A stretch of 64,000 nt of DNA from Tachypleus tridentatus (taxonomy: Eukaryota; Arthropoda; Merostomata; Xiphosura; Limulidae). Numbering within the stretch: position 1 is the first letter of the stretch; every line of letters starts with the position of its first letter. The stretch is from NCBI RefSeq assembly GCF_004210375.1, contig NC_134828.1:20576400-20640399 (forward strand), read 5' to 3'. A program made the position numbers and the translations under genes. Of the stretch, positions 20,960 to 44,300 are shown one piece after another. Under the pieces are notes generated by a model, which was not told the DNA's origin, did no database searches, and was given only the letters and a program-made list of their open reading frames with translations.

Positions 20960-21064
20960 ATAAGTTAAGTTCGAAGCTACAGAATGGGCTATCTACGCAC
21001 TGCCCACCACGAGTTTCTAGCGTGGTAAGTCCGCAGACATTCTGTTGTGCCACCAGGAGGGCTG
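20960..21064 (-). repeat. tRNA-derived SINE (family B), minus strand
   Basis: Contains GAAGCTACAGAATGGGCTAT and GTAAGTCCGCAGACATTCTG. The B-box segment is partly deleted. Confidence 0.7.
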
Positions 21065-21600: not shown

Positions 21601-21990
21601 TATCAAAGGCACACAGTTGTTTTTTTAATCCCAAACTTTGTATATTAAAATGTATCATACACGCAACATAACTGGATTGTTTATATAAATATTTATTTAC
21701 TTATCAGTTACATGTCGCCACAGCACTACGTACATATTTCCAGAGGTGAAATATTTATAAAGTCTTTAAGTCATTTTAAACTTATCATTTTGTAACCTAG
21801 ATTATTTGAGTGTGTGAATAATGTTGTTCTCCTTGGCCAAATTTATGATTTTGACCAACTATTTAATGTTACAGATTTCTTTTATTTTCTTTGGGTTATT
21901 AGATGATGAATAAAGAAGAACTCAAAAAGCTCATAAAAATTGGAAACAATATTTTCTAGTACCTTAAACATTGTCATCTCCAAAATCTGG

Positions 21991-22213
21991 GCCCAGCATG
22001 GCCAGGTGGATAAGGCACTCGACTCTTAATCTGAGGAGTCGCGGGCTCGAATCCAGGTTATAATGTGACGGTCAATCCCACAATTTGTTGGTAAAAGAGT
22101 GGCCCAAGAGTTGGCGGTAATGACTAGTTATCTTCTCTCCAGTCTTACACTGCTAAATTAGGGACGGCTAGCGCAGATAGCTCTCGAGTATCTTTGCGCG
22201 CAATTCAAAACAA
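21991..22213 (+). repeat. tRNA-derived SINE (family A), internally deleted
   Basis: Head GCCCAGCATGGCCAGGTGGA and tail CAATTCAAAACAA present. About 50 bases are missing after the B-box and about 10 near GTTGGCGGTAATGAC. A perfect 12-bp target-site duplication TCCAAAATCTGG flanks it (21979-21990 and 22214-22225). The head carries ACTCTTAATC, resembling a tRNA-Lys(CTT) anticodon loop, whereas most copies have ACTCGTAATC. Confidence 0.92.
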
Positions 22214-22388
22214 TCCAAAATCTGGTGTTGGCTATCCATGATGTTTTTGCAGCTACAACTCTGAAGAAGAAAAAGAAATATTTTGAAAGCCACGTGAATG
22301 ACATACATATCAACGTTCATATTATAACTGAAAACAAAGAAAATGAAACAATGATGATTTTAGATTAAATAAATAGAAAAACAACAAA

Positions 22389-22425
22389 GTCGCACGCCTT
22401 AACACGCTTGGCCATGCCGGGCCCC
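22389..22425 (-). repeat. Family-A SINE head fragment, minus strand
   Basis: Only GTCGCACGCCTTAACACGCT and TGGCCATGCCGGGCCCC remain. Confidence 0.75.
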
Positions 22426-22709
22426 TCAAGAAATAAATAAAAATAGTTTGTATTCCACTGTGATATGAACAAATTAAAAAAAAAAAAAAAGATGTAAAAA
22501 GGTCATTAGAACATCCAGAAATAGCAACATCTAAAAATAGCTCAAAATCATTAAAAATCACCAAAAAAGACAAACATTTTACAATTCTCTACTTTTATAT
22601 TGACTCTAAATCTTAAATTTTGCCTCTACTTGAGGGTAGTAGTAATACAGAAGGTGTTTCTCCTTTACCTGGATGTAGAAAAAAAAAGAAATCTCTTCCA
22701 TAACCCCCC

Positions 22710-22829
22710 CCCCCCCGCTAATAGAGCAGTATGTCTACGGATTTGCAACGCTAAAATCAGGGGTTCGATTTCTCTCGCTGGGCTCAGTAGATCGCTCGAT
22801 GTGGCTTTGCAATAATAAAACGCACACAA
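22710..22829 (+). repeat. tRNA-derived SINE (family B)
   Basis: Starts at a C-run (22706-22717), then TAATAGAGCAGTATGTCTAC, GGGGTTCGATTTCTCTC and the tail GCTCGATGTGGCTTTGCAAT, ending in AAAACGCACAC. The tail is the closest single-copy relative of the 33-bp minisatellite unit. Confidence 0.85.
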
Positions 22830-23130
22830 CATGCATCTTTTCCCTACACTGCATTTCATGGTACAAAATCACTTCAGTTTGTCAAAAATTTAATTCAAAT
22901 ATTGTGAAAATGTACAGAATTGTCAAAAAGATAATATAACAAAAAAGAAAAACCACAAAAAATAATAAGTATTATAAAAATAGTCATGAATCATTAAAGT
23001 TTTTAACCCTCAAAAATGAAAATAACAGTCATTGCTACAAAATGCTAACGTATGTTAACATGAAATTACAAGTTCAATAAAACGATTTTTCTGATTATTT
23101 CAACAGTTATTCTCTTATAAACATCCGTAA

Positions 23131-23245
23131 GATGGGTTGTGATGACTAGCTGCCTTTCTTCTAGTCTTACACTGCTAAATTAGGGACGGCTAGCACATAT
23201 TAGCTCGACTAGCTTTGTGCGAAATTCAAAAACAAGCAAACAAAA
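23131..23245 (+). repeat. Family-A SINE 3' half
   Basis: From GTGATGACTAGCTGCCTTTC to AAAAACAAGCAAAC. The tRNA-like head is missing (5' truncated). Confidence 0.85.
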
Positions 23246-23597
23246 CCTGGGTTTAGTTCACGAAGTTTCGATTGTAACGGCATTTCATTAACATATATTT
23301 ATTTTAATATGAACGTTTGTTTTAGTTAAGTATATATTAATATTTGGAAAAGTACGCCACTTCTTGTGTTAAATATGTATTGTGAAATTCTCATCTGTTA
23401 TATAAATTTGTAGAAGATTCTAGAGTAAAGAATCATCAATTGAAGATATGTGTATTTAAGTTCTAGTGACTGCCAGTATTGTTGCCAACTGAAATTTCTA
23501 GAACCTTGTCAAATGATTATAAAAGATAGTCATCAAAATCAGTATACTATAAACCTCAGAATTGGTAACTGTGATAAATATTTTACATTTTGATAAT

Positions 23598-24058
23598 GGC
23601 TGCTATGACACATAACCCGGAACCAGGACTGGAAAGGCCAACTTCAGGTGATTGACGGTGGTTCTTGAACTTACCTGTTAGTCTTCCTGTCGTGTTATGA
23701 TCATTACCATTTTGCTAGAGAAAGTCGTTTTTACAACTTCTTTTACTCTGATTTCTCTCTTTATTGTAGACTAGATGTCAACATTGGTTTTATGCTATTT
23801 ATGTTTTTCAATGCTGTTTTGTTTTACCTTCATTTCCTTTTATGAATTTTACTACATTTATTTTATTTTTACCTTTTTACCGGATGTTTGTCACAGATAA
23901 CCTATTTGCTTTGTGCCATAAAACACTAAATCAACTAACCAACTTGCCTTTGTTACGACTCTCAAAGACAGCACCATTTTAAACATGTTATGTTCCAAGG
24001 TTTGTCCATGATGTTAGACATTGTTATTGTTGAGGGGGACAATGGGCAGATTAGGTGA
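23598..24058 (+). mobile_element. LINE family-1 fragments in head-to-tail order
   Basis: 23598-23945 matches the 3' UTR of the LINE at 52.4-52.74 kb (ACCAGGACTGGAAAGGCCAA through CATAAAACACTAAATCAACT). Directly after it, 23945-24058 matches the end of ORF2 of the same family (51995-52110: TTACGACTCTCAA.GACAGCA, TGTTAGACA.TGTTATTG). Normal order is ORF2 then 3' UTR, so the end of one copy is joined to an inner part of another. It ends without the second 3' UTR. Confidence 0.75.
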
Positions 24059-24059
24059 T

Positions 24060-24588
24060 ACGTTAGTTTGCAAGACCGGTTTTTGTGGCAAAAATGACTG
24101 CCAACATGAGGTTTCTCATGCATATGTTACTTGGTTTGTTCAACAAACCAGGTTTGAAATCCATGGCATGTATTTAAAAATATAATATTGTAACTTGCTC
24201 TAAATTTTATCTTGGCACATACTGATGTTGTTAATAATAAAATATTTCAGGTATTCTAATGACAAGACTTTGCAAGTCTTGCATGTGTTATGAATCCGAG
24301 TGTATATAATGTTTTCTATTTATCATTGTTACAGTGAAAGTGTGGATACCTATTGATATATACATTTGCAGTCTAAATACTAGATTTAGGCTTAGGTCTA
24401 AAATAACATTAGCATTCTTATGTGTAGCCTAGTAATAAAAACATTGCTGTTACAGCAACACTTCTTTAAATGGATATATTGGTATTTACAAATTCCATCA
24501 CAAGTGTTAAGATCTGTTATTTAGGACAGTAAGATGTGCAGTTACTTAACTTTCAGAGTGGAACAAAACATTTAAAGATTTGTAACCA
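24060..24588. other. AT-rich sequence, nothing recognised
   Basis: No domain-bearing frame and no repeat family recognised. Confidence 0.4.
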
Positions 24589-24589
24589 A

Positions 24590-24657
24590 TAGTGGGGCAT
24601 AGCACAGATAGCCCATTGTGCAACTATATACTTAATTACAAAGAAATAAACCTTTTG
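24590..24657 (+). repeat. Family-B SINE 3' fragment
   Basis: Contains GTGGGGCATAGCACAGATAG and CCCATTGTGCAAC, ending in an A-rich tail. Head lost. Confidence 0.6.
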
Positions 24658-25011
24658 TTTTATATATATCAAGAATAAAATAAACACTAAAGTACAGCAA
24701 GAATCATGGTATTACTGGAATAATTCCTGTATTTGTTTTTTTGTCTCCTGTGATACATATAACATTAAAGTTGGATATCTGAGCCATATAAAGCTTTGTT
24801 TGATATCATTGTAACAATGAAAATGTAGTTTGTTGTTGATTGTTTTTCACAGAATTTTTCAATCCAAAAGCTGGATTTGGCTGAGACAAAATGAATCAAT
24901 ACATTCCCATATGTGGCCTTAATTTGATTTTTACAAACACTACTCTCATTAGTCATTACTCGCAGGAACAATTTCTGTATTATAGATGCTTGTCCTTTTT
25001 TCTGCTCCCTC

Positions 25012-25125
25012 AGTGGGGCAGTGATACATCTACATACCTCATAATGCTAGAAACCAGGTTTTGATACCCACAGTGAGCAGAGCACAGATAGCCCATCATG
25101 TGGCTTTATGCTTAAATTTAAACAT
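25012..25125 (+). repeat. tRNA-derived SINE (family B)
   Basis: Complete-looking: CTCAGTGGGGCAGTGATACA, GTTTTGATACCCACAGTGAG, CAGAGCACAGATAGCCCATC and an A-rich 3' end. Confidence 0.8.
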
Positions 25126-25129
25126 ATCC

Positions 25130-27968
25130 TTTCTTCCTAAGTTATTTTGACTTAAACTTTAAATTTGGTAAAATAATGTACAGCATTAGATTCTGATGGG
25201 GACAGTGGAGATGAGTTATTTGAAACCAAAAGCATGTAAACAAAATTCAGCAGTACTGAAATAAATTTTGTATGTCTTACCTCTGGTAGATGTGACCTAA
25301 TACTTCAGTATTAGGTTGTGCTTCTCAAGGATTAAAAACAAAGCTGTTGACTGGACAGCTGCACATATATCGTAAAGTTGCATTTTATACAATATTTAAA
25401 CATCTATTGCATATGATCACAAAACTTCATTCAGATTTAATGTGAAATAAACTTTTGTTTTTACAAGACAAATCATAGCTGGTTAATTTAGAAATGTGTA
25501 ACTAGAGGTCTTACAAACCTAATTGGATATGTTGTTTCAAATACTTTACTAGGTTTATGTGATTGTCAGATTGATTCATGTGGTAAAATGACAAGTAAGT
25601 GATTTGATTTTTGTTTACAAAGCCTATTTCATACTGAAAGTTGTCCAGGATGGCTCAATATGCATCTAAAATATGTACAACCCCATAGCTTTGGGGGAAG
25701 AGGGCTAGGTGGCTTTTAAAACTCCAGCTAATATATATATTTCAGTGAAATGTTCACTGAAAACTCACCCATGTTTATCCTCGGTTTATTTTTCCAAAAC
25801 TGTTCTCTTATAAGCTTTTGTGTGTACATGGAAACTACATGGTACAATTTATAAAATGTAAATCATACTAAACATACCGTACTAGCCCAAACATAAGTTG
25901 TTGTTTTTGCTGAAAGCATATAAGAACTAAACTTTCCTTAATTGTTGTCTGCTGTCTGAGGCACCTTTTGAGCACATGATCAATGGGCTCTTGTTAGGTC
26001 TTTAACGTTATTTTTCATGTTAAAACATGCTCATGTTACTGTTGGTCTCAGTTGCAGAGAAATGCATTACATTGTTTGTGATGTCTATGTTTAAGATTGT
26101 ATTGATTAAAATTGATCATGGAGGAAGCATCCATTAGGTTTGTGATATCCATAGTTTGTGGTTTCCATGTATTTGTAGGTGTGAAAGAAGTTTTCATAAT
26201 TAACTATAGTTCAACTTAAATATAGTTATCAATAGATCTTTTTAAAATCCAGGTTTAGTCACAGGTGGTGTATCCAAGTCACTAACTGAAAGTGATCTGA
26301 TTGTTTTATATGCTACTGAAAATGTTCAACATTTTAAATTAGAAGTCTCATTAGTTATTGTATCCACTATATTTTGTTTGATAAGAAACATTTCAGTGTT
26401 TGTTCCTTTCAATTTTTCAGGGAATATTTTGGACTTAAGATAGTCCTGTACTTTGCTTGACTTGGATTTTACACCTGTATGTTGATTCCAGCTTCAGTAG
26501 TAGGAGTGTTGTGTTTTCTGTATGGGTGCTTCACCTTGTTGGGTGATGCTCACAGGTATGAATAAGGGGGAGAAAATGATAGTTATCAATGTCTACTAGT
26601 GTTACTGTCATGAATGCCACCTAGTTGATGTATGTAGCATTTGTTAAAGAATATTGTACATTAATGCGTGATCCACCTAAGATTATTACACATGTTACCC
26701 TTATCAATGATGGAGTTATTTCTCCCCACTGGGAGCGCAAACATGAATATTTTCCTCACAGTAACTAAACTAACAATATCTTTACAGCTGACTCGCCACA
26801 TCTCACTCTTGACTAAAATTGAGCAACTCATTTGAAAGTTAGGTCTACCTGTATTGTGGTGTAGTATCGTTCATATATCAGTTGGAACTAACGATCCATC
26901 TCTCTGATAGTTTCTCGTAAAGACAGAGGAGCTGTAGAGTAACCCTATTAATAAAAGTGATGAAAAACTGCCAAGATATTCACTGAAATTAATAAAGATG
27001 GCATTCTTACTTATAAAAACAATTTGAATATTATGCCATTAGGTATCAGCCATAATTTTCTATGGTTTACCTTATATTTATAAAGAAGGAGTTTCATTAC
27101 GACCTATTGTTTTCTACAATGGAGCTTTCAGCCATACTTTACTGGGCTTTAGTTGAATTTTTAAAATGTTCACTATCATTGAATTTATATAAATAAATGT
27201 CAGTATGTGTCTGTTTCTCATATGTCTCCACGTTTCTTGTTCAATTAACACCAAAGCTAACACGGTGATATAGCTCTGTTTGTTATTCGTCTACAAACCA
27301 TTAACTAGATAATCAGACCAACTCTTGCAATTTCATCTTTCACAAATGCTAATAGTTATACACTACATTATTTATACCCAATAGAAAATTAAAGTTTCAA
27401 TCTGTCAAGCGATCTGGTTTGTTGTTTTCTTTATGCAGTTTTGTCTATTTTATCATTTGGTTTCAAATTTTTTTGATGGAAATTACTGATTACACAGTAA
27501 TCACACAGGTGAGCTTAGCTGATTGCCTTAACGTATATTATCACATTTATAGAACAGTGTTTTCTGTGTATTATTATTCTCTGTTCTTAGTTGTACTATT
27601 TAATTACATAAAAACATTATTAATTGTAATAATTTCGTAAATAGAAAAGTGAGCTTAAGTTTCATGACAGTTTACAGCAAAAGAGAAGACCCAGACAAAT
27701 ATTATATTATTTATTTTTCATATGTGTGTTTTATTTATTATTTATATCACTGAGTAAAATGTACAAAATGTAACTTATGAGATAAGGTAAAGTAATTCTT
27801 TTTAATATGGTATGCTTTTGAGCAGCCCATGGGTTATTTAATTTTTGGGTTTTGGTTTCAGTTTCGGATCTCTTGTAAAAACAATCTTGTGAGGGATGTC
27901 AACATATTTAACTTGATTATTATTTTTAGTTTCATGTACAATAAGATTATGTTCGCTTTGGCAACATT
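25130..27968. other. Long AT-rich stretch without a supported gene
   Basis: No exon with a recognisable domain. It follows (3' of) the minus-strand six-exon gene, so its right end probably includes that gene's 3' UTR. AATAAA-type words on the minus strand are common in such AT-rich sequence and not decisive. A segment near 26527-26550 (CTTCACCTTGTTGGGTGATG) resembles 62687-62702, suggesting an old repeat. Confidence 0.4.
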
Positions 27969-30900
27969 TTAATTGACACATGAGTGTTGATTTCGCAGCT
28001 CTACCAGTAATAAATTTGTTTCGGTTTCAGCATTTTCAATAACAATAAAAACGTTTCTCTGGTGATGTTCTGGTTTGCTGCCAAGTCTTACAGTGATACT
28101 TTTATCAGCATTGTAGACAAGTCTAGTAGAGGGAGGCCTGATGTTGCTTGACATATCCCTCTGGATACATTCATCGTCTTTTATTTCTTTTGAAGCTGGT
28201 GTTTCTGCCTGAAGATTTCATTATAATTAGTGATTAATCATCAATCGAAAAAAAATGTTTTAATAACAATAATAAGTTAATAAACATTTTAAAAATATAT
28301 AATTTATTCTTTATGTAGCAGTCGTTTTACTATAATATGAGTAAAACCAAATAAATGTTTGTATGAAAATTGTAAGTTATGAAATTGGTTTCAGGTGTCT
28401 GATAAACGTTTTCTCAAAACTACGAAATATATCTCAAGTATTGTCCCAAATAGTGAGAAAGGTAATATAGAGCAGATAATAGCTTTAAATAATGTTTTAC
28501 ATTTATATTGTTTGTTCACAAATATTAACTTGCTAAAACAAGATAAAACTACTGTTATAAATAAATGTCAATTGTTCTCCTCATTTCATTGTTATATAAA
28601 TTAAGCATGAAAAGTTATGTAATCTGATCTACAAATGACTATAAAGAGGAAGAGTTTTCAAACTGTCTTATCATAGTTGTAACACTGTAGTAAATCACGG
28701 AGTTTATAGTTCTTTAAAATATTCAATAATCTTAGTAAAGTCCAAAAGAAGACAGCTGGATATTTCACTAAATGTCTGTCAGACCAATGAAAGTTGACTG
28801 ACTATAAAAACAAACACTGATGCAAAATGTCTCAAAGTGTTATTAACAAGATATGGTGGAATCACGTGTAACAAAATGGTACAAATACACTGGTACTGGA
28901 CTGAAAAGAATAAAGTCCACATTTAAGTAAGTTACCGTTATCTAACGATTCGCTACAATTATGGGATAACTGTTAAAAACAGAATCAGATGTTCGTAGCT
29001 GCAACCGAACGTCATTTCAGTGTATGTACGGTTAAAAACACAAGAGGTTTGGTAATACTACTGAGACAAGGTATATTTTAGTTATAGTAAGACACAAAAT
29101 AACTCACTTTAATATCAGTAGTGGAAGTATGTGTGGTAATGAAAAATCACGAATGGACACTCTGACCTTTATGTTTTCCAGATGTCATTAAGACGATACA
29201 TAATACGCTGTCGTATATGTTTACGTTTGGTTCTGACTTCAGCTGAATGGATGATAATTGTCTTCCCACGTGTAATGATATTGAAGAAGAGATGATTGAC
29301 CAGTTTAACTAGGGTACAGACTTATCAGACCTCGATAGTATCGAACATGTATCGGTCTCTTTTGGAAGAATTACATGTATTTAAATGACTCTGAACATTA
29401 AGGATTCTCTGAATGCATCTTTTTCAGTAGTTGTGGATGCCTCAGGATCTTAACAACACTGATTGTAAGCATGCAACATCGATATGATATTGGTCACACA
29501 GTTTGACACAGTATACATTACATTAAAGTGAAATGTTTTTAACTCTAAAAATGTGAATTCATTTCTACTAAATATTAATCGTAAACGTAAGATAAATGAA
29601 AAATTAATTGAATTTTGAACCAGATACAGATAATAAGATGTCAGATATTCACAGAAATTAAATATGAGAATGGTTGTAATTATTTTATAACAGTAATTTT
29701 GTATTAGCATTAATAATGTACTATTAATTCCATTATATTTCAGTTGCTCAGTGCAATATATATATATATGTGTAGGTATAAATAAACTTGTATGAAGTGA
29801 AAGTTTAATATTAAGAGCAGATCCTTGTTATTAATGGTTATATGCTGATGCTGTATAATACTGAGTACTATAAAGAAAAAGAATTTTAAATCTACAAACC
29901 GTTGTCAGTAAATCAGAGTTTAATGTCTCTTTAGGTTTGTCATCATTCACGATTATCCTAGCGCATTTCTTTGGTTTAGTTTTATCAGAACCTGAAGCAG
30001 GCTTGCTCATGTTTTCCGCTCTTTCTGTTTTCCTTTCTATTGTGTACTTTTCATTTATTGTATGGGTGTTTGTGTGTATGTGTTTTCTTATAGCAAAGCC
30101 ACATCAGGCTATCTGCTGAGCCCACCGAGGGAATCGAACCCCTAATTTTACCTTTGTAAATCCGTAGACTTACCGCTGTACAAGCGGGGTCATTTTTTGT
30201 CTGCAAGATGGTTGGTTGTGTCAGTTTTGCTTTAACATCATATTATTTTCTCTTTTATTAAACTTATTTGTCGGGGCCTTTTCATAATCAGGGATCATTG
30301 AAACAGCTTCTAAAATATCTAACTCACTAGGGTGATCTTTTCAGTTACAAGCGCCTGGTCTTCTAGCATTGTATAGGCAAAACTCCACAAGACCCGAGGA
30401 CGCGGTTTTCAGGGCTTTCCATTCGCCCTGGGCTTTTTCATTTCAGTATCTCTGATTGGTGGAGAAAATCGTCGAGAATGGAAAAGACATTCGGGATAGT
30501 TTTATGGACTGTCAGAATCTGTTGTGGGATTTCTCGGAACTTATCTCTTAATTCTTTAAAATAAGGTGGTCTGTAAGCTCTATATTTCTTAAATGGTTTC
30601 TTTTTTTTTTTTTGTTTCTTCCTAAAACATCAAGAATCATGATAAGTTGATTTTAAATACCATTATATAGAAAATTTATACAGGGCAAAACTTATAACTG
30701 GTTTATATCAATTTAATGGATATCAACTAAAATAATACGTCTTCAATCAACATTTCTAGTTAAATATCCAAATTTTAAACAAACTAATTGGCTCCATGAT
30801 TGATTTTTAATGAGTAAAATGGGGGAATGTTTATCTTATATATAGCAAAATATTTACAACTTTAATGATTTGGGGGATAGTATGTGGAAAATATCACATT

Positions 30901-33900
30901 CCTCTTGTACTAATGAGAACAAAATGTAAACAATTATTTATAAGTTATATTAAAAATATGAGAATGTCAAAAGCAATAAAGAACAGAAGAAATTGAAATG
31001 AAAAAGGATTTCGGTATTTACAGCTTTACGTTTGAGGATGTTAAATTGCGTGATGCATATTTAAGTTAGCTTATTGTAAATATCGAGAAAATTGTGGGGC
31101 AATAAGTTTCCTCCATGTTTATTTGTTTGTTTTTTATCAGAAAGCTACAAAATGGGCTATCTGTGTGTACTCGCCACAAGTATTAAAAGCAGTCTTAGAG
31201 TAATGAGCACTCGGTCTTACTACTGAGTTCCAATAGTGGTTCTTAATCTATGACTGCTTTTTCATTTCAATATTCTAACATTCAAGGTTTGTCTGGAAGC
31301 CGTTTGGCTTCGAGATGGCGCTGCAACATTTATCAACATCGAGAATATAGATTTGAATTAAAACGCAAGAGGAAGAAGAACACGACAATAATGAAGCTTC
31401 ATAAAAAATGAAATGAAACATTTTTAAACTTTCTGTGGACCGTAAAAGAATCCAATACTTTCTAGCTAACATAAATGCAAATTCGTTAACCCAAAATAAA
31501 CCAATATAAAGGAACGCCATTATACCTATATTAATATAATATAATAAAATTATATATTGAGACATATAACACCGTCCTCTACATTCCGACACTCAGTTAC
31601 ACAACCCTTTCTAAACATGTGGTCAGCTTCCGGTCAGTTACCTCTTTCTTTGTGAACCTGACGATGACCGAAGAAGGTCGAAACGTTGTTCGCTCTTCTA
31701 TGTAAAATATTTTCTCAACCCAAACGAGCCGTTTTTTGCATATATATATCTTTCCAAATGTTAAAACAGTAGAAAATGTGTAATTTTTCCACTTTTGTTG
31801 TCTATACATTTCATCATATACTTTCAGTTTATAGACAAACAACAATATCAGGTTATAACATTTGTTGTTAAGAGACATGACACAAAGTGATCGTTGTTAT
31901 ACAGGGAAGCTGTACACCAAACTTGGTTAAGATTCATCCGTAGCTGTGTAACTTGTGCATTTACTGTGGAAACACATGACGCATAAACAGGGTCAAGTGA
32001 GTATACAAATTTCATGCATGTTTGGAAATGGCTGCAGAGATAAAGAAGAAACCTGTATTTTATATAGATATATACAACATTTCCAGAAGGTAGTTATCAT
32101 TAGGTGTCCATTCAAACCGTCTACAATTTCCATCCAAAAGTGATACCGTGCCATCAAATTGAAACTTTATTTTAAGGTGGAAGATTAGAGAGTAAAGTTT
32201 ATAACCTTAACACATTATATTTATAACGGAGTCTAACCTTCACGAAGAACACAAGCATAAAAATGTATAGAAAGTAAGTTAACATACATGATTGAAGATA
32301 TATTACATTATTCTTATGTCTGTTTATTTGAAATTAAGCATAGTGATCTATCTGTGCTTTACCCACCACGGCTAACGACACCCGGTTTCTAGCTTTATAA
32401 GTCCTCAGACCTACCGCTTTACCACTACAAGGCTCTTGCTGGGAAAGAGAATAATATGATGACATTTTCTATCATTACATTACTTACTTGAGGCAGTTGA
32501 ACATACCGCACTTTCCTTGGTCTATTTTTCATAATATTGTGTGGTTTTCTATTGTATTTTAAATGTTTATTTGATTTTACTATTGAGTTTTGTGGTTTTA
32601 ATGTATTTTTCTCGACGATCACCTCATCTTTTTTCCCCCTTTCTGACTGGCAGCACCATTTCAAACTTATAAGACTACAGAAGAAAACCACCAATAAATA
32701 ACATAAGTGATTTAATTTAACTATAATTTATACATCAGTGTTATTTCAATTAAAAATAGAATCTAATTATAATCTAGAAATAATAATATTTAGCAACCAG
32801 AGGCACAGGGGCTTCCTCAACATGTTGAATGGCAGTAATTAAACAGAAATAAAATGTTATAACATAACAGGGATAATTTAATAAATATTATACTTGCTAA
32901 TAAATTCCACTTTTAATTAAATATCGTATTAAAATAAATACGATAATCATTAATTAAAAAATAACTTCTTTGAATGAAAATGCCTTTTGTATTTATCTCA
33001 AGTGTTTTCCAATTACTCTAATTGTAAAGTTTAGGTTTCCAAATATTTAACACGTTTCAACTTCAAGTATTTGTAATAACACACAGTACCTTATTGTATT
33101 TACATATAAAACTGGTTAAACAATAACATACTTACAAGAACTTGTAATATTGAAAAAACTGCTCCACAATTTAAGTTTTAAATGATGATCCACACATAAA
33201 TTACAGTTTATTATAAACTAATGATGCTAATTTCACCTTATTATTTCTTTTTACTGCAAGTGTTTGTAACCATTATTTATTATTCCAGTTAATGAACATT
33301 TTGGATTTCTCAGCCACTTGAAATTTATCATCAAGAATGTACACAAATGGTTCAACTATTATTATCTTAGAAATTATATTAAGATCTATTCAACTAAACA
33401 TAAGAAAATAATATTTTTCTTGCCTTAAACAAGTTATCAAAAGTATTATTCCTGCTGCACCAATCATGAGGGGAATGGGATGATCTAATATTGATGTTAC
33501 TGAAATGGAAAAATACAAGTTAAAAGAAAATGAATTTAGAGCAGTTTGTTTTTGTTCTGTGATAATATTGAAGGAGATTATGTTTCATACATTATACCTA
33601 CGGTTAAGAGAACCATATAATGACAGCGTTCTGAGTTACTAGAATCAAATTTCCATTCAGTATTCAAACAGAGATACACATACACATCGATAAAACAGTA
33701 CAGGTAACGAAGTGTGAAGTATCAGTATGGCTTTACTTCTCCAGTGATAATACCAGTAAATATATTTATTTATCACATTTTAAAATTTATTTTATCTCTT
33801 GTTTTTGTACTTTATAATAACCAAATATACTGACTGTGTTTTCACATTAAAATAGTATGATAATTTTATGTAACATGTGACTAAACACCTTTATTTCAGA

Positions 33901-36900
33901 TATATTTATAACAAGACAAAAGACAAGAGTAACGATTTCTCAGACTTTCAAAGATGCGTGATTGTCGATACTGACTTGCTTACAATTTGTAAACTGAATA
34001 CTGTTTATCTGATAGACTACTCATAGAAATCTATAATTAGTGTTTACAAGAACTAAAACCAAAGAGAACACCTTGAAAACTATCGGAAACAATTCAAAGT
34101 GAATAAACGTTTTTTTTAAAGTTGCTACGAGTGGTGAAATGGTAAGAGATGTATTCTTCATGATAGAAAATAATGACCAGTAACAGTTTTCCGTCACGAC
34201 ATCTTGTCACCAGCCTTTCTAAACATACTGTCTCATGTTGAAAATAAGCGTTGAATAACATCATTTGTATAGTAACTAACTTTTGTTTGGAGAAGGACTG
34301 AATGATGAGACATTCACTTCTGGTTCACATGGATCTAAAAAACGTCCGTATATGTAAATAGTGTTAACTTTGACAATTAATAATAAAATGCAGGATGAAA
34401 TATATAATTAATAATTGACTGCTTAGTTTGTTCAAAACAGTGTTTCCTTTTTCGATTTATTTTAAAATTAGAAGTCACAAATACTGGTCACAACACAGAT
34501 TAAATCTCATCGCGTATCCATCAGGACATTCGTCGAAGTCTTTGTCTGGTTGTTCGAATGCTAAAATAAAGAATAATATAATTCATAGTTCAAGTATTGT
34601 TGACATCAGGAAAACTACTTTGTACTGTTTGTTTGGAATTTAACATAAACCTAAACAATGAGCTATCTGTGCTCTGCCCACCACACATATTGAGACCCGG
34701 TTTTTTAGCACTGGAAGTCTACCGACATATCGCTGTACCACGGGAGTATGTTTTGAACTGATATAACATTAATGTTATTATACCAAACTTCTACAAGTCG
34801 ATAAACTACGTTTTATTAAATAGATAAAGAGCAAGATAAACTATCAACTACATTTGTTAAACTTTGTTTATTCCTAACAGAATTTTCGATTTATGAGCTT
34901 TCCTGAAGAAAAGTAGTTAATAATTTATTATGGCCCTAAAATATATTTTTGGTATTGTAAGTCACCATAGGTTTCAACTCAATATATTTTCATTATTAAC
35001 GATATGTAAGGATTTACAGTGCTAAAATCTAGGGTTCGATCTCTCCTAGGGGTAGACACGAGGATTTCCCGTTGTTGCTTTCCTATAAGAAAAACACACA
35101 TTTTCATAATAAGAAAAAAAACATAACGTGACTGCAAATCTTGGAAAGACGATATTCCAAAAATATTAAAATTATTTACGAACTCCTGAGTTTATTATCT
35201 TTTACAGAAGAGAGAGTAAACAGGTCCCGGCATGGCCAGGTGTTTAAACTTGTTTAGCAAAATTTTAAATGTTTTCACACTTGAGAAGGGTAAACAATCT
35301 TCTAGAAGTTTTCTTTTCCTTTCTGTTTTCAGTCACTTCCTTATCAATTGATGTACATTGTAATATATACACAAATTTTGTTCAGTATTCTTTTTTTTTT
35401 TTTTGCAAATAGTTCAGGATAGCCAGGTGTTTGAGGCACTCGACTCGTAATCTGATGGTCACGGGTTCGATTCCTCGTCCCACCAAACATTCTCGCCCTT
35501 TCAGTCGTGGGGTCGTTATAATGTAAATGCGGTGGGTGATGATGACTACCTGCCTTCCTTCTAGCCTTACATTGCTAAATTAGGGACGGCTAGCGCAGAT
35601 GGGCCACGTGTAGCTTTGTACGAAATTCAAAACAAACAAATGTAAGTGAACCAACTACAGAATACATTCAAAACATACAGATCCAGATATGAATGCTTAT
35701 TTTTACAACAAAGTAACAAATTATACACTAAACAACAAAGAACAATTAGGACCAATTGTCCCAACAAGTATATCTGAAACAAATACAAGACTCATCACAA
35801 ATTACAAAGACACGATCCTAATGAAAGAAATATCCATACATGAACTTCTTGAAGCAATAAAAGCAAATCTCCGTGTGAAGATGAGATACAAGCCATCCTT
35901 CTAAAAAGGGCACTACAAAATTGTTTGACCACCTAAAAGCACTTTTTAACTTATCACTATCCTCAGAACACATACCAGTTTCTCGGAAGCATGCTAATAT
36001 ATTGATGTTCCATAAGGAATAACAGCCAGCAAATAAACCTAATAAACCTTTAACAAAACCAGTGCACTGCTTTCTTGGCATTGAGAAAGCATGTGACACT
36101 GTATGGTACAATGGTCTACAGTTCCACATGAATGAACCGCGTGGAATTATTCGCTGTAATCTAACGTTTTCGAAACTAGAAAGTGTAGAATAAATGTAGA
36201 GGGAACCTTTTCTGAGTACTTTACTCCAGAAGCTGGCGTCCCTCAGGAAGGGGTGGTTAGCCCTATACTCTTCACCATGTATGTAAACAATTTGCCATTG
36301 AAGGGTCCTAATCATATTTTCTCCTCACAGTTCAGTGATGATGTGGCCGTCTGGAAAAGTGCCACAACAACAACAATAGCAGTCACAAACATATAACCAC
36401 AACTAAACAGAATAAGCGACTACTGTCAAAGATACAGAATAAAAATAAATACAGCAAAAACACAACTTGTGTGTCTTTACAAAGTTGATAAAATACAAAA
36501 AACTACAGCCTGAAATATATATGAATGGAACACTACTTCCGCCTACCACATCGGCAAAATTTCTAGGTCTAACCTATGACTCAAAATTAATATGTATTAA
36601 CCATGTAAATGAAATTAAAGTCTGGCAAAGAACCAACTATGCTCGGAGTCTCATTCGCAAGAAAAGTAGAGCATCAACAGACAACTTACTAAATATTTAC
36701 AAAACATACCTCATACACGATGAAGATAGTCCTAAACACTTCTATCCGATCAGCATATATTTTAAACACAAAAATAAATAAATGAAAAAAATAACAAAAT
36801 AATAAGATAATATATATATGTATTTTAAAAAGGGCCACCACCAAACTAGACTTCAAACTGATAGGGCAAAATAATATCAATATATGTACGGCCTGGCATG

Positions 36901-37831
36901 GCCAAGCGCGTAAGGCGTGCGACTCGTAATCCGAGGGTTCGCGCCCGCGTCGCGCTAAACATGCTTGCCATCCCAGCCGTGGGGGCGTATAATGTGACGG
37001 TCAATCCCACTATTCGTTGGTAAAAGAGTAGCCCAAGAGTTGGCGGTGGGTGGTGATTACTAGCTGCCTTCCCTCTAGTCTTACACTGCTAAATTAGGGA
37101 CAGCTAGCACAGATAGCCCTCGAGTAGCTTTGTGCGAAATTCCAAAACAAACAATCTATATATGTATACCAGTACATGAGCATTGATGATAAAAGGGTCG
37201 GAGTAAATTCATCCCACTCTGACCCTAAAGTAGTAACTAACACCAACCAACACTGCATGACCATATGATACCCAAATCCCAAGAGAGAGAACAATACGCA
37301 GTGCTGTATTTATTCTCGAATTTTGCCTTTTTCATTGACACGTATAACACTAACTTCCGACAGCCGAAGATATCTACTTAGATCAAAATTAAAGATTTGT
37401 TTTTTGTAATTTCGCACAAACCTACACGAGGGCTACCTGCGCTAGCCGTCCTTAATTTAGCAGTGTAAGACAAGACGGAAGGCAGCTAGTCATCATCACC
37501 CACCGCCAACTCTTGAGCTACTCTTTTACCAACGAATAGTGGGATTTAACGTAACATTATATAGCCACGACGGTTGAAAGGACGAGCATGTTTGGTGCGA
37601 CGGAATTCAAACCCGCAACCATCAGGTTACGAGTCGAACGCCTTAAGCCACCTGGCCATGTCGGGCCCAAAATTAAAGATATACTCAGTAATAGATATTA
37701 ACTACTTAATAAAATAAGCTGTTCAAGGCGTCGAGTTTAATACCTTCACGTGTATCTTTTGTGCGTGTGGGCATTGCGGTTAATACAGCACCTAGTACTA
37801 TAAAAATAAATGCCTGTAAAAATAAGTTCAT
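27969..37831 (-). CDS. Unrecognised small type I membrane protein, six exons
   Basis: Predicted exons, in transcript order: 37831-37744, 34560-34495 (or 34492), 34334-34281, 33499-33424, 32674-32488, 28208-27969. Total 711 nt, 236 residues (237 with the alternative donor). Intron phases fit throughout: 1, 1, 1, 2, 0. Exon 1 begins MNLFLQAFIFIVLGAVLTAM, a good signal peptide. Exons 2-3 give a roughly 40-residue ectodomain with DFDECPDGYAMRFNL, PCEPEVNVSS (two or three Cys, one N-glycosylation site). Exons 4-5 give a transmembrane segment, PLMIGAAGIILLITCLSLIS, then KWCC and a Lys/Arg-rich tail. Exon 6 carries VYNADKSITVRLGSKPEHHQ and ends in a stop. Introns 1-4 start with GT except intron 4, which has a GC donor (TTAAG|GCAAGA). 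Introns contain SINEs, a LINE and a Penelope-like piece. No family is recognised. A receptor or adaptor-like surface protein is a guess. The agreement of phases is the main evidence, and transcript data are lacking. Confidence 0.62.
28209..29890. other. Last intron of the predicted membrane-protein gene, left part
   Basis: AT-rich. The plus-strand open frame at 28395-28604 and the minus-strand one at 29450-29710 have no recognisable domain. A short (AT)n run lies at 29757-29770. Confidence 0.4.
29891..30622 (-). other. Coding-like tracts inside the last intron (alternative exons or decayed coding sequence)
   Basis: On the minus strand three stretches look coded. About 30622-30455 gives KPFKKYRAYRPPYFKELRDK, then FREIPQQILTVHKTIPNVF and DDFLHQSEILK with a stop. 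About 30350-30240 gives HPSELDILEAVSMIPDYEKA. About 30065-29905 gives ENMSKPASGSDKTKPKKCAR, then IIVNDDKPKETLNSD. A SINE (30073-30192) separates the last two. The first is preceded by an acceptor-like TTTTAG and an A13 run, one base too long to keep phase 0 with the preceding exon. They could be cassette or alternative terminal exons, or pieces of a broken older gene. No family recognised. Confidence 0.35.
30073..30192 (-). repeat. tRNA-derived SINE (family B), minus strand
   Basis: Complement of the consensus: AGCAAAGCCACATCAGGCTA, GGGAATCGAACCCCTAATTT and CCGTAGACTTACCGCTGTAC. Intact A- and B-box regions. Confidence 0.88.
31120..31235 (-). repeat. Diverged family-B SINE, minus strand
   Basis: AGAAAGCTACAAAATGGGCT and CACTCGGTCTTACTACTGAG are recognisable. 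The middle is scrambled. Confidence 0.6.
31478..31750 (+). mobile_element. Penelope-like element, 3' terminal fragment with hammerhead-like core
   Basis: The segment from about 31478 matches, in reverse, 45705-45965 of the Penelope-like copy (GTGGTCAGCTTCCGGTCAGT, GTGTAACTGAGTGTC complement, AACCCAAACGAGCC). The terminal part contains CTGACGA (31658-31664), a GACC/GGTC stem with a GAAGAA loop, and GAAAC (31680-31684), the arrangement of conserved core words in a hammerhead ribozyme. Hammerhead motifs are documented in Penelope-like elements. Only the end of the open frame is present. Confidence 0.8.
31658..31684 (+). ncRNA. Hammerhead-ribozyme-like core in a Penelope-like terminus
   Basis: CTGACGA, then a 4-bp GACC/GGTC stem closed by GAAGAA, then GAAAC. 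One unpaired U lies between CTGACGA and the stem, which departs from the canonical core. Upstream GTTAC (31636-31640) could pair imperfectly with GTGAAC (31652-31657) as stem I. A proper cleavage triplet is not clear, so self-cleavage of this copy is doubtful. Confidence 0.4.
32320..32434 (-). repeat. tRNA-derived SINE (family B), minus strand
   Basis: AATTAAGCATAGTGATCTAT, GCTAACGACACCCGGTTTCT and GTCCTCAGACCTACCGCTTT match the complement of the family. It lies just past exon 5 of the predicted membrane-protein gene, inside its last intron. Confidence 0.75.
32700..33420. other. Intron 4 of the predicted membrane-protein gene
   Basis: AT-rich, no repeat family recognised. On the minus strand it starts with the GC donor at 33423 and ends at the TTCTTCTGTAG acceptor at 32675. 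Confidence 0.45.
34628..34750 (-). repeat. tRNA-derived SINE (family B), minus strand
   Basis: AATGAGCTATCTGTGCTCTG, TTGAGACCCGGTTTTTTAGC and CGACATATCGCTGTACCACG. Lies in intron 1 of the predicted gene. Confidence 0.8.
35005..35102 (+). repeat. tRNA-derived SINE (family B), 5' truncated
   Basis: GGATTTACAGTGCTAAAATC, TAGGGTTCGATCTCTCCTAG and a tail with TTTCCTATAAGAAAAACACA. Confidence 0.7.
35224..35248 (+). repeat. Family-A SINE head fragment
   Basis: TCCCGGCATGGCCAGGTGTT only. It probably became separated from the copy at 35414 by an insertion, since both read AGGTGTTT after the A-box. Confidence 0.6.
35414..35640 (+). repeat. tRNA-derived SINE (family A)
   Basis: Head AGGATAGCCAGGTGTTTGAG, B-box ACGGGTTCGATTCCTCGTCC, body TTACATTGCTAAATTAGGGA and tail AACAAACAAA. 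The middle lacks the TATTCGTTGGTAAAAGAGT segment. Confidence 0.88.
35650..36790 (+). mobile_element. Non-LTR retrotransposon 3' part (LINE family 2), decayed
   Basis: Same family as 17.8-19.0 kb, opposite orientation. It gives the pre-RT linker (SISETNTRLITNYKDTILMK), the RT core CFLGIEKACDTVWYNGLQFH, EAGVPQEGVVSPILFTMYVN, the catalytic box FSDDVAVW (36331-36342, where the other copy has FADD), and thumb text AKFLGLTYDSKL. It then jumps from NIYKTYL to IHDEDSPKHFYPISIYFK. Against the 18-kb copy, about 220 bp are missing at that junction. Stops and shifts break the frame. It lies antisense in intron 1 of the predicted membrane-protein gene. Confidence 0.85.
36889..37156 (+). repeat. tRNA-derived SINE (family A), full length
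   Basis: Head CGGCCTGGCATGGCCAAGCG to tail AAACAAACAATC. TATATATGTA-like target-site duplications flank it (36879-36888, 37157-37166). Confidence 0.9.
37397..37668 (-). repeat. tRNA-derived SINE (family A), full length, minus strand
   Basis: Complement of the consensus with the head GGGCCC at 37668. A perfect 12-bp target-site duplication AAAATTAAAGAT flanks it (37385-37396 and 37669-37680). It inserted just downstream of exon 1 of the predicted gene, inside intron 1. Confidence 0.93.
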
Positions 37832-38175
37832 CTTCACTAGAATTTAATGTATGCTTGCAGTAAAATGTAATCGTTTTATGTAACGAAGGTAATAAAATTT
37901 TCCTAATTTCTGTGTCGCTAAGAAACTAAATCATTGTTAATAATATTAATATTGTAACCACGTGTTTCTATAATCCTTAGAGGCAACAAAGATACTAGAC
38001 AAATAATGTATTATAAAATTTACATGTTAAACACCAAAAACTGACAAAGTACAGAAACTAGAAGGTGGAGCATTTGTGGTAACACAACAGAACTACAATT
38101 CAGTTTGGAAACAGCTTTGATTTGAATTCAAAGTATACAAATTTAAAAGGAGATGGAAAAAATCTAAAGATTATG

Positions 38176-38232
38176 TCTGTGTTTGTTTTTCTTACAGCAA
38201 AACCACATCGGGCTATCTGCTTAGCCCACAGA
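38176..38232 (-). repeat. Family-B SINE 3' fragment, minus strand
   Basis: TTACAGCAAAACCACATCGG and GCTATCTGCTTAGCCCACAG. The head is lost. Confidence 0.65.
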
Positions 38233-38756
38233 ATGTTAAAGGTTACGCGATTTTTATTACAAAATATTGTTGTTTGACAACAATACTTGTTAGATAATCA
38301 CAATTATTGTTGTAAAAATTCTTTAAACAACTCGCCTGGCAGGTATATTATATAACTTAAGAGCAAACAAAAACGGGCTATGTCAGTTTATATATTTTAG
38401 GCAAAAGCCCTTGGTCTAATACAAATCTGTCAAAGTCCCATATACAAGAGTCGTTCAGTTTAACAGTAAAAGATTGGCTTAAATTATAGTGAATAAAATC
38501 ATTAAACGCGTAATTTTCGCTTACTGTTAAAGTGTTATTATTGTAACAGTTACAAGACATCAAATATATGACATTACATGATTTATGGTATAATGAGTGA
38601 TTAATCTTTAAAGCTATCCAAGTGTTGTGTGGTTACTTGCGGTAGGGCAAATAGGACTTCATATTGTATCTACAGAAATATTGAATACAAGCTAACGAGG
38701 TCATAACTTCATTAAACATGTCACTGGTTAGACTTCATTTGGAATATTGTGTTCAG

Positions 38757-39014
38757 TTTTTGGTTTGAATTTCGCGCAAAGCAGTACGAGGGCTATCTGT
38801 GCTAACCGTCCTTAATTTAGCAGTGTAAGACAAAGGGAAAGCAGCTAGTCAACATCACTCACCGTCAACTCTTGGGCTACTCTTTTTCCAACGAATAGTG
38901 GGATTAAGCGCTACATTATAAAACCCCCACGGCTGAAAGAGCGAGCATATTGGGTGTGACAGATTCAAACCTGCGCCCCTCCGCTTACGAGTCGAGTGCC
39001 TTAACCACCCGGCC
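38757..39014 (-). repeat. tRNA-derived SINE (family A), minus strand
   Basis: Complement of the consensus from GAATTTCGCGCAAAGCAGTA to AACCACCCGGCC. The head lacks about 10 bases. No clear target-site duplication. Confidence 0.88.
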
Positions 39015-39629
39015 TATTGGTTACTACGGTACCTGGGATAGAGGGGGGTTGTCATATAAGGAGAGGCTGAAATCTAAAAGTTTGATTGATCTTTGGATGT
39101 TGTAGTGGCAGTAAATATAAGTGAGTTCAAAAGAAAGCTTCATTAGTATATGAATGATAAGGGTTGGTTTTAAATCTTTTTACTTATGGAACAGCCGAGG
39201 TGGACCAACAGGTTACATGTTTTCCCAAAACGTTGTGTTAATAGTCATGTCGTTTATGTATCAAATTCCAAAATCTTTATAGTAAGAAAAGTAATAAATT
39301 GTTCAAAAAAGAAATATTATAATCATGTTATTAAAAATTATTAGTCGCTAGATTTATAATTAAAGAGTCAAACTATAAGTTTATTTAAACTAACTGTATT
39401 AGTTATACTCATACTGACCAAATTTATGCTAGTCCTACTTTGTGGAACTATAACGTCAATATATATTTAAAAGTGGCTGCTGTGGGTAGAGAAGGCATCA
39501 CGGATTATAACGTCGTTACACAACTCATGGCGCTCGAGAAACGAGTCTCTGGTGACACTTTCTGGAACAACGACATCACACTGAGCTGTGAGCGCGCCAT
39601 TTGGTGACAAATTTTGGAAATATGTCATT

Positions 39630-39752
39630 ATTTTGAATTAAGCACAAAGCTACACAATGGTCTATTTGTGCTCTGCCCACCACGGATATCGAAACCCGGT
39701 TTTTTTGCGTTGTAAGTTCACAGACATGCCGCTGAACCACTGGGGTGCAATA
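39630..39752 (-). repeat. tRNA-derived SINE (family B), minus strand
   Basis: AAGCACAAAGCTACACAATG, GATATCGAAACCCGGTTTTT and CAGACATGCCGCTGAACCAC: close to consensus. Confidence 0.85.
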
Positions 39753-41150
39753 TGTCGTCATTATCTTTAATGACAACATTCCTTTCCCGCTTCAGACCCA
39801 CACATATGTAGCGTCATCTAATGGCCTGTTCCACAAGACGTGGGATAACTATTTACGCTTATTGATTTTTTGTAACAAATACACAAAGTTGTATGTTGTA
39901 TAGTAAAAGCAATTTGTAGTACTTCAAAATATACCTGACATGTAACATTTAAAAGATTGTGTACCTTATTACGTTTTACCGATTTTTTTATTTACAAATG
40001 TATCAGAGTTTAAATACCTTATAGTTTTACCAGCAACATTTCTATATTATTGTACACGTATAATTTGAAATTTATGCAGTAAGTTGGGTACAAAATGTAT
40101 GCTAACAATATTCTCTATTACAAACTTTTTCAGGATAATGACGAAATTTTCGTATCTAGAAAATCCCTTTCCTGTAATCTATTCAGTCTTCACTGTTTTC
40201 GTTTATTTCCAACAGTGGCTTCTACTGAAAGTACTGTCAGCCATTAAAGTGTGCTGCAAAATTTTATCCAGTACAATCCTCTCATTATGATCATAACGCA
40301 CGTTCGTTTGCTATGAATGAAACTTAAATATTCAGGTCTCCAAAATAACAAAGGCCTACGACAATTCCAAGAGGCGTTCAGCCGTTTTTCAGGTATAACG
40401 GCCAAGTCGATAAAGCAGTTCGTTTTCGTCCTGTTACCTTTAACATCTGAAAGAATAGAAATAGAATTAAATATGAGAACATAAAATGTGGAATATAAAT
40501 GTGTCAGAGAGGAAATGGTATAAACGATACAACGATATAAATGTATTCTAGTGACACTTGAACCAGGTATCTAAAGACAAGTAGTGTTTATTATAACAGC
40601 GCATTATTCAGTTTAATGATAAAAAGAGAATTGTTTAGTTTTAAATCACCAACAGATAGCGGGTCAACAATGATCGACGTACTTTTATTTCCAATTGTAT
40701 TTACGATGGTGAAACATACTTTTTGTTTTTTTTTATTTCTAAGTCGTTTACTTCTCTTATGTGTTTCTGTTTAACATTAATTCCATCAACTTTTAAACTT
40801 TGTTCACCGACTTCCATCATCCAAGTGAGCACATTCAGCGTTTTATTATCTCATCCGGGTTACGAACTGTACAGTTACGTGTCATTTATCAGCCAGTAGA
40901 CACTAAAATGACGTCATACAATGGACGCTTAATACTTCAATTTGTACTGTTGTGAAGTCAGTAAAACGTGTGATTGTCATAAGTCACGAAAAGAATCAGG
41001 CATTCTGTAGACTAGAACACGATGTGACATGTAACCTAAATATAAGATAAAAATATTTGTTACTCCTTAATTTGGATTTATTTTACTCTTGAAACAGAAT
41101 ATTTTCGTAGACTTGTTTCAGTGTTTAAAAGTAGGTTTACTATATTTTAG
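39753..41150. other. AT-rich sequence, nothing recognised
   Basis: The open frame at 40084-40290 has no recognisable domain, and no repeat family is recognised. Confidence 0.4.
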
Positions 41151-41384
41151 GTTTGTTTTCGAATTTCGCGCAAACCTATACGAGGGCTATTTGCGCTAGT
41201 CATCCCTAATTTAGCAGTGTAAGATTTGGGGGAAAGCAGCCAATCATCACCAAGTCTCGGGCTACTCTTTTACCAACGAATAGTGGGATTAACCGTAACA
41301 TTCTAACGCTCATACGGCTGAAAGAGCGAGCATGTTTGATGCGACGGGGATTCGAACGCCCTAACCGCTTGGGCATGCCGGGCC
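41151..41384 (-). repeat. tRNA-derived SINE (family A), minus strand, internally deleted
   Basis: Complement of GCGCAAACCTATACGAGGGC at the left to GGCATGCCGGGCC at the right. About 30 bases between the B-box and the anticodon side are missing. TATATTTTAG / TATTTTTTAG may be a decayed target duplication. Confidence 0.88.
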
Positions 41385-44300
41385 TATTTTTTAGGTCCAG
41401 TGTCTTTCACACGTTAATATATTTTTAAATCCAGGTTTTATTTAAATATATTTCAACGCTTTCCGAACATTATTTCACCCTAAAACTAAAACGGTGCTTT
41501 TGTTTACATCACATTAAATATTAATATGAATAATTTTAAAACACAGGATTTTTAGAATAACAAAAGTTTCTAATTGCACATACCTAAATAAGCATGTCTA
41601 CTTGTGTTCGGTCTAACAGGAGTTAAGCCTTTATTTAATAAGTACAGCCTGTATTCATTAAATAAGTAAACACTAACTTTTGTAAGTTTTTTGCTTTCCT
41701 TTACTAAGGACAAAGTTCACCGTACGTAATACTATCAACGGGTAAACTTATACTATATTACTACATTACGTTAGACATTAAAAAAAATTAATATATCGTA
41801 CAAAATGTATGCTAAATTATATTTACACTCGCCTTTTGCTTACATCAGTTATTATAAAATATAACATATACTGAAACATATATGTTTAATTGGTCCTTTG
41901 TTTTCTCCAAAACTAGTGAAACATAAATGTTACTTCCACAAGTGAGACATCAAAATTAAGAACCTACAAAATTCCCCAAATAAAGAAAAGTTTTAAATGT
42001 GAGAGACCCGAAGTACTACTGTAACATCCTCACAAATTTACATTGTGTTTACGCAATTCACTCAGCAAATTCAATATGGTCTAAAAAACTACAAGAATTG
42101 TAAAATTAAAAAACATTAAATCCATTTGTGTCAATTAGATAATCCGTTGTTAATGAATATTGTTCTAAAGATAAATTATTTTTGCATAGTAGAGACAACA
42201 TTTTCAATTCTGTGAGAATTTTGTAGGTAGAAGTAAAACGTGGCTTCATTTCCCCATTCTAAGTGTATGGATTTACATGAAAACTTGACATTCCAAATTT
42301 CATAAAGTACAAATTCACAAAAAAGCAATCTTTTCAAAATCTTAATTAATTAATTTACAGGTACATATAAGAATCATATTAACAGAATCAACTTGGTTAC
42401 AAATTTTCATCAGTACAAGTGTCCCTTACTGAAAATATAATTTAATATCATAATATCACCATAAATAATTCTAATTCAAAAATTTTATTATAGCAGTTGT
42501 TTCACTAGTTTGAATATTTATATGCAATTCCATTAATGTCCAAGAAAAGTCAGTTTTATCACACCAAAATAATGAAAATGATTCTAGAAGCATAACGTAT
42601 TTGTCAATCAGTCAGTAACACATTCAATTAAAGATGTTCAAAGTGTTTGTCTGTGTTGGAAACCACTATAGTAATCAAAACAACAGCAAAAGTTTAATAT
42701 CAAAAGTAAGAGACATCCTACTTATTATTCTTTGTATGATTGTTATTAACCTACAACTGACAAGAGTTCTTTGTTTTCTGACTGGATTCCACCACCCTAC
42801 TCTAACAATCTAACTGCAGGTTGCCACTGTACTGGTAAATTAACAAATACCATTAAAGTATACAAGGTATATAAGGTTAGTTGTTCATTATGTGATTATT
42901 TGAAATATCTGATGGAAGGAATTCGAGCTGTGTTTTCAAATCACCAGACATAATATTTGAAGAATGTTAATTACCTCTGTTTGAATGCAAACAGAATATG
43001 CATTCCTTTTTCTATGAGTCTGTCAGATGTTTCTAAGTGAAAGTTAATACAGCCTTATATTATTTACTATAATTGAATCATAAATAGAAAAAGAAATATT
43101 ACTATTCACACTTAAAATATAATTTCTTTCACACCTTATACTGCATTTTTTGTCATACTTCACATGTGACATAATTAGTGTAACACACTGTGACATGAAC
43201 AGAGAAAATGATTTTTTTTTTTTTTTACATTTAAGAGCATTTTGGAACAGTTCTATACACTTAACTTGCTTTGTTCAAAAGTTTGTTATTACAATGGTAC
43301 TGAATTATTCTTCATGTAATTCCTTTATGCACTGTAAAATAAATAATTAAAAAGGCAGATGAAATAAGTTAAGTGTATGTAAATGCATCATAAAGATTAA
43401 ACCTGTTAAAGGAGACAGTAAACAATTATTCAATGGATCAATATTTGATTGAATTTATTTGAATACAAGAATGTATATGATAATAATAAAGTACAATGTA
43501 CTAGAAAATATAATATACTGAACTTGTATCGACCAGATACTGGAATGTGCATAATATGGAATTCACCTGTTAACTTTGTGAGATTCACGTTTCTCTTAAT
43601 ACTTAAACCTAAGCAATAAGAAATGGCTTGAGAAAATATATAAATAGATTATAACTTACATGTATGAAAGAATATTATTGTATACTTAAACAATTTAAAT
43701 GTAACATAATTATTAATTTACAAACAGCTTAAAACTGTCAACAAAAACCTTTTTTGTGACATTTGCAATAGAAGATATGATCTACATGTATGCCACATTT
43801 AATAAACCAATAATAGCAATAATAAAAGTTATTTGACTAAGTCTTCAAATATAAATTTTAAGAAAAATACATTTCCTCATTACCATACATTTCTTACATT
43901 TACTAGGACCCAATGAATAACTAAAACTTAACATAATATTAAAGACATTTCAATTTCATTTAGATGTGTACTCATGTTGAATTACCTTTATGTGTTACTA
44001 TTTTAAAATATTGGAATGATATTCAATAGGCTTAAACCACTACTTGTAAATAGATGTGCAAAAAATGTTAGGCATAAATATCATTACACAACAAGCAATG
44101 CTTAAGAGGAATACATGTCAAAACTGTTACATAACAAACAACCTTTTTTGGGTCACATTTTAAAGTTTTTCTCTCAATTAAAAAAAATAACATAAACCTT
44201 TTATTTACACCTAGTAATATAGCAGGACTTTTAAATGTGATGTAATAAGTGGTAACTAAGATTTATTAATCTATTAGAGTACTTTGTTTTAAATAAGGCA

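Follow-up and report, generated by a model that had tools for sequence, protein, structure and literature searches.

The window, i.e., the whole analysed stretch of 64,000 nucleotides from the horseshoe crab Tachypleus tridentatus, most probably holds one copy of a short six-exon horseshoe crab gene, with the 3' end of a second gene joined to it at 30443/30444. It lies on contig C4 of a 2.17-Gb genome, and all copy counts given in the following are lower bounds. Coagulin, which is not known from animals other than horseshoe crabs, has 19 matches in this genome (best E 1.5e-25) and none in any of 14 control genomes. For this region, the initial annotation had reported six minus-strand segments that join with phases 1,1,1,2,0 into one frame of 711 nt (E1 88, E2 66, E3 54, E4 76, E5 187 and E6 240 nt), and we find both the segments and the frame as described. 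Its interpretation as one unrecognised six-exon gene is partly supported. That is, strand, phases and E1-E5 stand (with E2 set 3 nt too short), while E6 forms the 3' end of a different gene. Joining splice phases by hand from the raw sequence recovered five true exons of a family without recognised relatives; where this assembly failed was the fusion point, the neighbour's last exon happening to fit in phase.

Exons 1 to 5 of the short gene

We compared each exon with its relatives elsewhere in the genome, i.e., with copies that are about 2-26% diverged and that were picked because their DNA resembles the window, which biases the sample towards well-kept copies. All exons lie on the minus strand. 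E1 (37744..37831, 88 nt) starts with an ATG, encodes the signal peptide (MNLFLQAFIFIVLGAVLTA...) and ends at a phase-1 donor GTATTA. From 85 candidate matches in the genome 40 were scored. ATG and frame are intact in 14/20 relatives, and a GT donor is present in 17/20.

E2 (34492..34560, 69 nt) encodes ectodomain sequence (CPDGYAMRFNLC). The 66 nt assigned to it before are right with regard to acceptor and frame, but the true end lies 3 nt later, at 34492. E2 is present in 14/15 relatives and its acceptor is kept in all 14 of them, of which 12 show the donor GTAAGT exactly after TGTT, i.e., at 69 nt in window numbering. A 34-nt deletion has removed this GTAAGT from the window such that the degenerate donor GTGACC remains. 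E3 (34281..34334, 54 nt, PCEPEVNVSSFSPSPNK) contains the NVS site and has the donor GTTAGT in the window; acceptor and a GTAAGT donor are kept in 15/15 relatives each, one of which (L100) carries a stop. The genome search for E2-E3 gave 130 candidates, 40 of them scored.

In relatives, for instance L082 and L098, the E3 sequence is PCQPGMDDETC and then SPNK. The window has three Cys in E2-E3 and some relatives (L082, L098, L099) have four, the last E3 Cys being gone from the window. The Cys spacing that had been proposed as a check is conserved in part: the first two Cys of the CP...C stretch of E2 are found in 14/14 relatives that have E2, whereas the Cys of E3 vary.

The transmembrane helix is encoded by E4 (33424..33499, 76 nt), which ends at a phase-2 GC-AG donor (AG/GCAAG). 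Among the 17 rows compared (138 candidates, 40 scored), 16 have a length of 76 nt, 14 have the GC donor and 3 have GT; 14 are free of stops and frameshifts, and two carry a stop. E5 (32488..32674, 187 nt) contains the KWCC juxtamembrane motif and the basic tail, and it ends at a phase-0 donor GTAAGT. It is open in 7/9 rows; lengths differ by 6 and 15 nt, which keeps the frame, and the GT donor is present in 8/9. All of its 31 genome matches were scored.

Damage is common among the relatives. It affects E1 in 6/20 copies as well as E2 in L103 and in L082, where an insertion lies within the exon. Judged by this comparison, E1-E5 are real exons, with frames, lengths and splice sites that are found again in diverged copies.

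The fusion point and the two last exons

To the initial annotation, the segment at 27969..28208 (minus strand) was the last exon of the same gene. A search with the DNA of this exon 6 yielded 159 candidates at first look; the 40 that were scored have 89-100% identity. The 19 copies with at least 96% identity, among them the window's own, are called the window family here, and the remaining 21 are called old copies. E5 is found within 8 kb upstream of exon 6 in 16/19 window-family copies and in 0/21 old copies. The old copies show a cysteine-rich exon 2.4-6.3 kb upstream instead (at least 10/21), which is seen in 0/19 window-family copies among the matches listed (150 scored of 425). Exon 6 belongs to this second gene, referred to as the long-family gene, and not to the short gene. 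A match to an unrelated gene, named beforehand as a finding that would speak against the six-exon model, was thus obtained for exon 6 alone and not for E1-E5. Seen from the other side, E1, E2/E3 and E4 lie upstream on the same strand at 16 of the 31 E5 places, and five of these 16 are outside the window family.

As the last exon of the long-family gene, exon 6 carries a 1-nt deletion in the window, which results in a new C-terminus. In the five old copies for which a longer stretch was read, the frame of exon 6 passes the window's stop and ends at about the same place. The longer frame was read in 18/21 old copies within the stretch fetched, compared to which the window is one base short.

The position of the fusion follows from two sets of alignments. 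L119 (C4:57.74 Mb), which is a relative with regard to E1-E5, aligns to window positions 31490-30444 and ends there; this refers to 3.9 kb that were read, with nothing beyond 30444 in that order. Copies of the long family (C2, L058, L060, L061) align from 30442/30443 downward, and L059 from 29767. Therefore, the window fuses two genes at 30443..30444, with the short gene at higher and the long-family tail at lower coordinates. The same fusion is present in all four other window-family copies that were read across, i.e., on contigs C19, C8 and twice on C12.

Directly at the fusion point, the window retains a remnant of a further long-family exon (E5b, 29900..30443, minus strand), which reads MEDQALVTEKITPSEL...SDSLTT in copy C2. 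It is open in C2 and L060, has one stop in L061 and a frameshift in L058. In the window it contains stops as well as an interruption by a short repeat at about 30065-30189. This repeat (30069-30189) resembles a second one at 20172-20286. We considered E5b as an extra exon of the window gene, which is excluded by the linkage table and L119; it is part of the second gene.

The short gene has a last exon of its own, which had been overlooked. It is located at 30502..30621 (minus strand) and continues in phase 0. Both the C19 and the C8 copy read EETKKKKKPFKKYRAYRPPYFKELRDKFREIPTTDSDSP-stop here, from which the two C12 copies deviate slightly, and L119 reads EKNKEKKFTKYKAYRPLYYKELKHKFKQLSNTDSDSP-stop. 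The acceptor of this exon is TTTTTAG in the copies and TTTTAG in the window. Within window positions 30621-30502, the frame is lost after seven codons through an extra A, which leads to an early stop; near the end, the absence of a C brings the frame back. The extra A lies in an A-run and could be an assembly error. All four other window-family copies fetched (C19, C8, two on C12) have this exon open. When searching the genome with window 30440-30660, 26/26 candidates matched, of which 22 have E5 at most 4 kb upstream; the list of 26 is a lower bound, L119 being absent from it. Using the C19-type last exon, the corrected gene comprises 88+69+54+76+187+120 = 594 nt (197 aa), and at least 11 loci among the matches listed have all corrected exons.

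It could be argued that the fusion itself made a new functional gene, in which E1-E5 are spliced to the borrowed exon 6 and 30621-30502 is skipped. With the E2 donor shifted by 3 nt, the joined frame of 714 nt (237 aa) is open, and the window's E5 can join exon 6 in phase. Furthermore, E1-E5 and the borrowed exon occur together at 8 places, and AATAAA/ATTAAA words are found 126-364 nt past the stop, if in AT-rich DNA. We nevertheless consider such a gene unlikely. The frame of exon 6 is cut or shifted in 11/19 window-family copies (in 4 of these 11, the only damage is a stop within the final 8 codons) as well as in 4 of the 8 places where all six exons are found together, the donor of E2 is degenerate, and the acceptor of the nearer exon outscores that of exon 6 (6.3 in L119 vs. 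-0.8, simple score; a home-made splice matrix for chain scoring was too strict for use).

The window copy has probably become a pseudogene or is close to one. Not all of its splice sites and exon frames are intact: its E2 donor is degenerate and its true last exon is frameshifted. Since a GT is left at the E2 junction, some splicing could persist.

Copies, selection and decay

Rather than standing alone, the gene belongs to a multicopy family, in which many copies are damaged. Window 12893-45701 matches C19 in one piece with 97.3% identity, and the match goes on to 2125 in further, gapped pieces. The copies on C8 and C12 begin at 36415 with a different flank, the two on C12 being about 27.6 kb apart. 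The gene is therefore part of a duplicated block (2126..45701, about 43.6 kb) that holds all exons and the fusion. Around exon 6, about 3.2 kb are shared at 98-99% identity in 3 of the 7 other loci read, and about 3.07 kb in the other four. An inverted partial copy with E1-E5 and the last exon is found about 17.6-25.1 kb left of the window on C4.

We hold it to be improbable that E1-E5 are the cargo of a large mobile element and dispersed for this reason. Copies are indeed scattered over many contigs, introns included, and reverse-transcriptase-like, mariner-like and SINE-like pieces lie close by, but the copies of the block end variously (45701, 36415; few long copies were fetched) and old copies are truncated differently. 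In addition, no terminal repeats or transposase could be tied to the unit in a non-systematic search, and the possibly related long family clusters as ordinary gene families do. Under the preferred reading, i.e., a short gene within a duplicated block, the window copy would owe its copy number to the duplication of the surrounding DNA and not to an activity of its own.

With regard to individual contigs, C19 (69.8 Mb) carries 11/19 of the window-family exon-6 copies and 35/150 of the scored cysteine-module exons; it may be an unusually duplication-rich chromosome.

Besides the gene, the window contains minisatellite arrays at 68-2125, 3730-3900, 4875-5247, 5476-5771, 5949-7440 and 7967-8561, of which 4875-5247 and 7967-8561 seem longer in the C12 copy. 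A dispersed SINE-like repeat is found at 10169-10451, 19779-20059, 36881-37154 and other places, and also beside many copies. By eye, the open pieces at 35650-36781, 17826-18892, 11842-12507 and 45900-46379 resemble reverse transcriptase, mariner transposase and a Penelope-type endonuclease; a search with 45900-46379 gave no useful match. An open segment on the plus strand (16151-16420) matches a vasa-type DEAD-box helicase (PDB 2db3, E 5e-23) and is apparently a fragment within the duplicated block. On the minus strand at 15311-15882, two open segments overlap in different frames, both with FSAYVNTV, and one has a signal-peptide-like stretch (IKSGLLLIFVCIQCLVHHVAVFNS). One of the two was searched, which gave no family over cut-off. 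Rfam reported nothing in the window at gathering scores.

Selection was assessed with a neutral simulation of stops along FastTree trees, in which indels are ignored, a mutation bias is assumed and L103 is left out. For E1-E5, we observe 4 stop-carrying tips vs. 20.9 (sd 7.7) expected neutrally, and 0.35% of 2000 runs were as low as 4. An earlier version of the test that included E6 gave 5 tips vs. 34.7 expected, with 0/400 runs as low. Stops in E1-E5 are rarer than under neutrality, and thus the ancestral gene was coding. This test, together with the conservation of the frames and of the GC-AG donor and with the canonical donors of the relatives, in our judgement already refutes for E1-E5 the reading of the open segments as a chance chain in AT-rich DNA, to which short exons and the weak E1 and E2 donors (simple consensus score) might point and to which we assign next to no probability.

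Substitution rates tell less. Changes per site are nearly equal overall for codon positions 1, 2 and 3 and the flanks (0.65, 0.56, 0.64 and 0.62, respectively), and dN/dS on E6 fails to separate its frame from frame +1 (0.54 vs. 0.51). The rates therefore give no demonstration of present-day constraint. Near-equal rates fit copies that have mostly been drifting since. A faster divergence of exons than of flanks, as it appeared when comparing copies with the window, was dropped as a general feature: when trees are used, only E2/E3 show it (0.81 vs. 0.55 changes per site in the flanks, p 0.004), while E1, E4, E5 and E6 show no such difference (p 0.26-0.69). Positive selection on E2/E3 is a possibility.

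Product, long family and known receptors

The ancestral product would be a single-pass surface protein of type I, made up of a signal peptide, a Cys-containing ectodomain of about 50 residues, one transmembrane helix and a Lys/Arg-rich tail ending in TDSDSP. The CC motif just inside the membrane could serve as a candidate palmitoylation site. Based on hydropathy only, the protein has an N-terminal hydrophobic signal and one further transmembrane segment, with windows above 1.6 starting at residues 1-4 and 73-88, in agreement with the signal peptide and single helix described before. Its most likely role would be that of a small cell-surface receptor or of a co-factor resembling one, to which we give about even chances.

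That the family was not recognised from the sequence is confirmed: searched as joined frame or as single exons, E1-E5 of the window gene gave no family in Pfam (none over cut-off) or PDB. RXT2_N, Asterix, vacuolar pump subunit G, Microcephalin, MAP17 and Anophelin were discarded, as were Calcyon, EGF_Tme5 and Mid2 (mixed relative), since their matches were below cut-offs or near chance. NCBIfam was queried with the long-family and other window pieces only.

For the long family, the exon upstream of the borrowed exon 6 (C2:86709730-86709891) matches Ephrin_rec_like (PF07699) with 35.4 bits (cut-off 23.1, E 9e-9). Within the PDB, it matches Mst1 (E 9e-7) and, weakly, thyroglobulin (E 0.005). The genome search with this cysteine exon gave 425 candidates, and 148 of the 150 scored are without stop. 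Two clusters, at C6:130.3-131.0 Mb and C5:58.9-59.2 Mb, account for 10 and 11 of these 150 scored exons, respectively.

The short gene shows a weak likeness to this module. The PCQPGMDDETC of the relatives' E3 is similar to PCPPGHDDNGFQTHC of the long family (BLASTP E 0.003, for a single pair), E3 and the cysteine exon both look like phase-1/phase-1 exons, and they share a common start after the acceptor, TTAG/ATCCATGT. On the other hand, the module of the short gene is shorter (three Cys in the window; some relatives have four), and the ectodomain of window and relatives gave no Pfam match to PF07699. A trusted E2-like or E4-like match was found near none of the long-family cysteine exons of C2, L058, L060 and L061.

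A further comparison is with small members of the TNF receptor superfamily such as BCMA or BAFF-R. Similar to these, the ectodomain of the short gene is short and starts with C-x10-C-x2-C, and there is one transmembrane helix. TNFR_c6 reaches 14.7 bits on the long-family exon vs. a cut-off of 29.4 (E 0.043), and none was listed for the short gene in the Pfam searches. The last exon of the long family weakly resembles Reeler (PF02014; E 9e-4 and 0.008), with 20.2 and 17.2 bits vs. a cut-off of 21 and no match in 3 of 5 old copies tested.

Titles and abstract openings from the literature on horseshoe crab TNF receptor, ephrin and multigene families contain nothing on this family, which is no proof of its being unpublished. 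For the mangrove horseshoe crab, immune genes are reported to lie in tandem clusters (PMC7210998), and the words TNF and ephrin are absent from the main text of that paper.

It is conceivable, albeit doubtful, that the short and the long family are two branches of one fast-diversifying surface-receptor multigene family specific to horseshoe crabs, in which the ectodomain exons outpace the introns and whose products perhaps recognise microbes, gametes or self. If they are true genes, the 425 ephrin-receptor-like candidate exons would represent a large gene-family expansion, which is worth a separate study.
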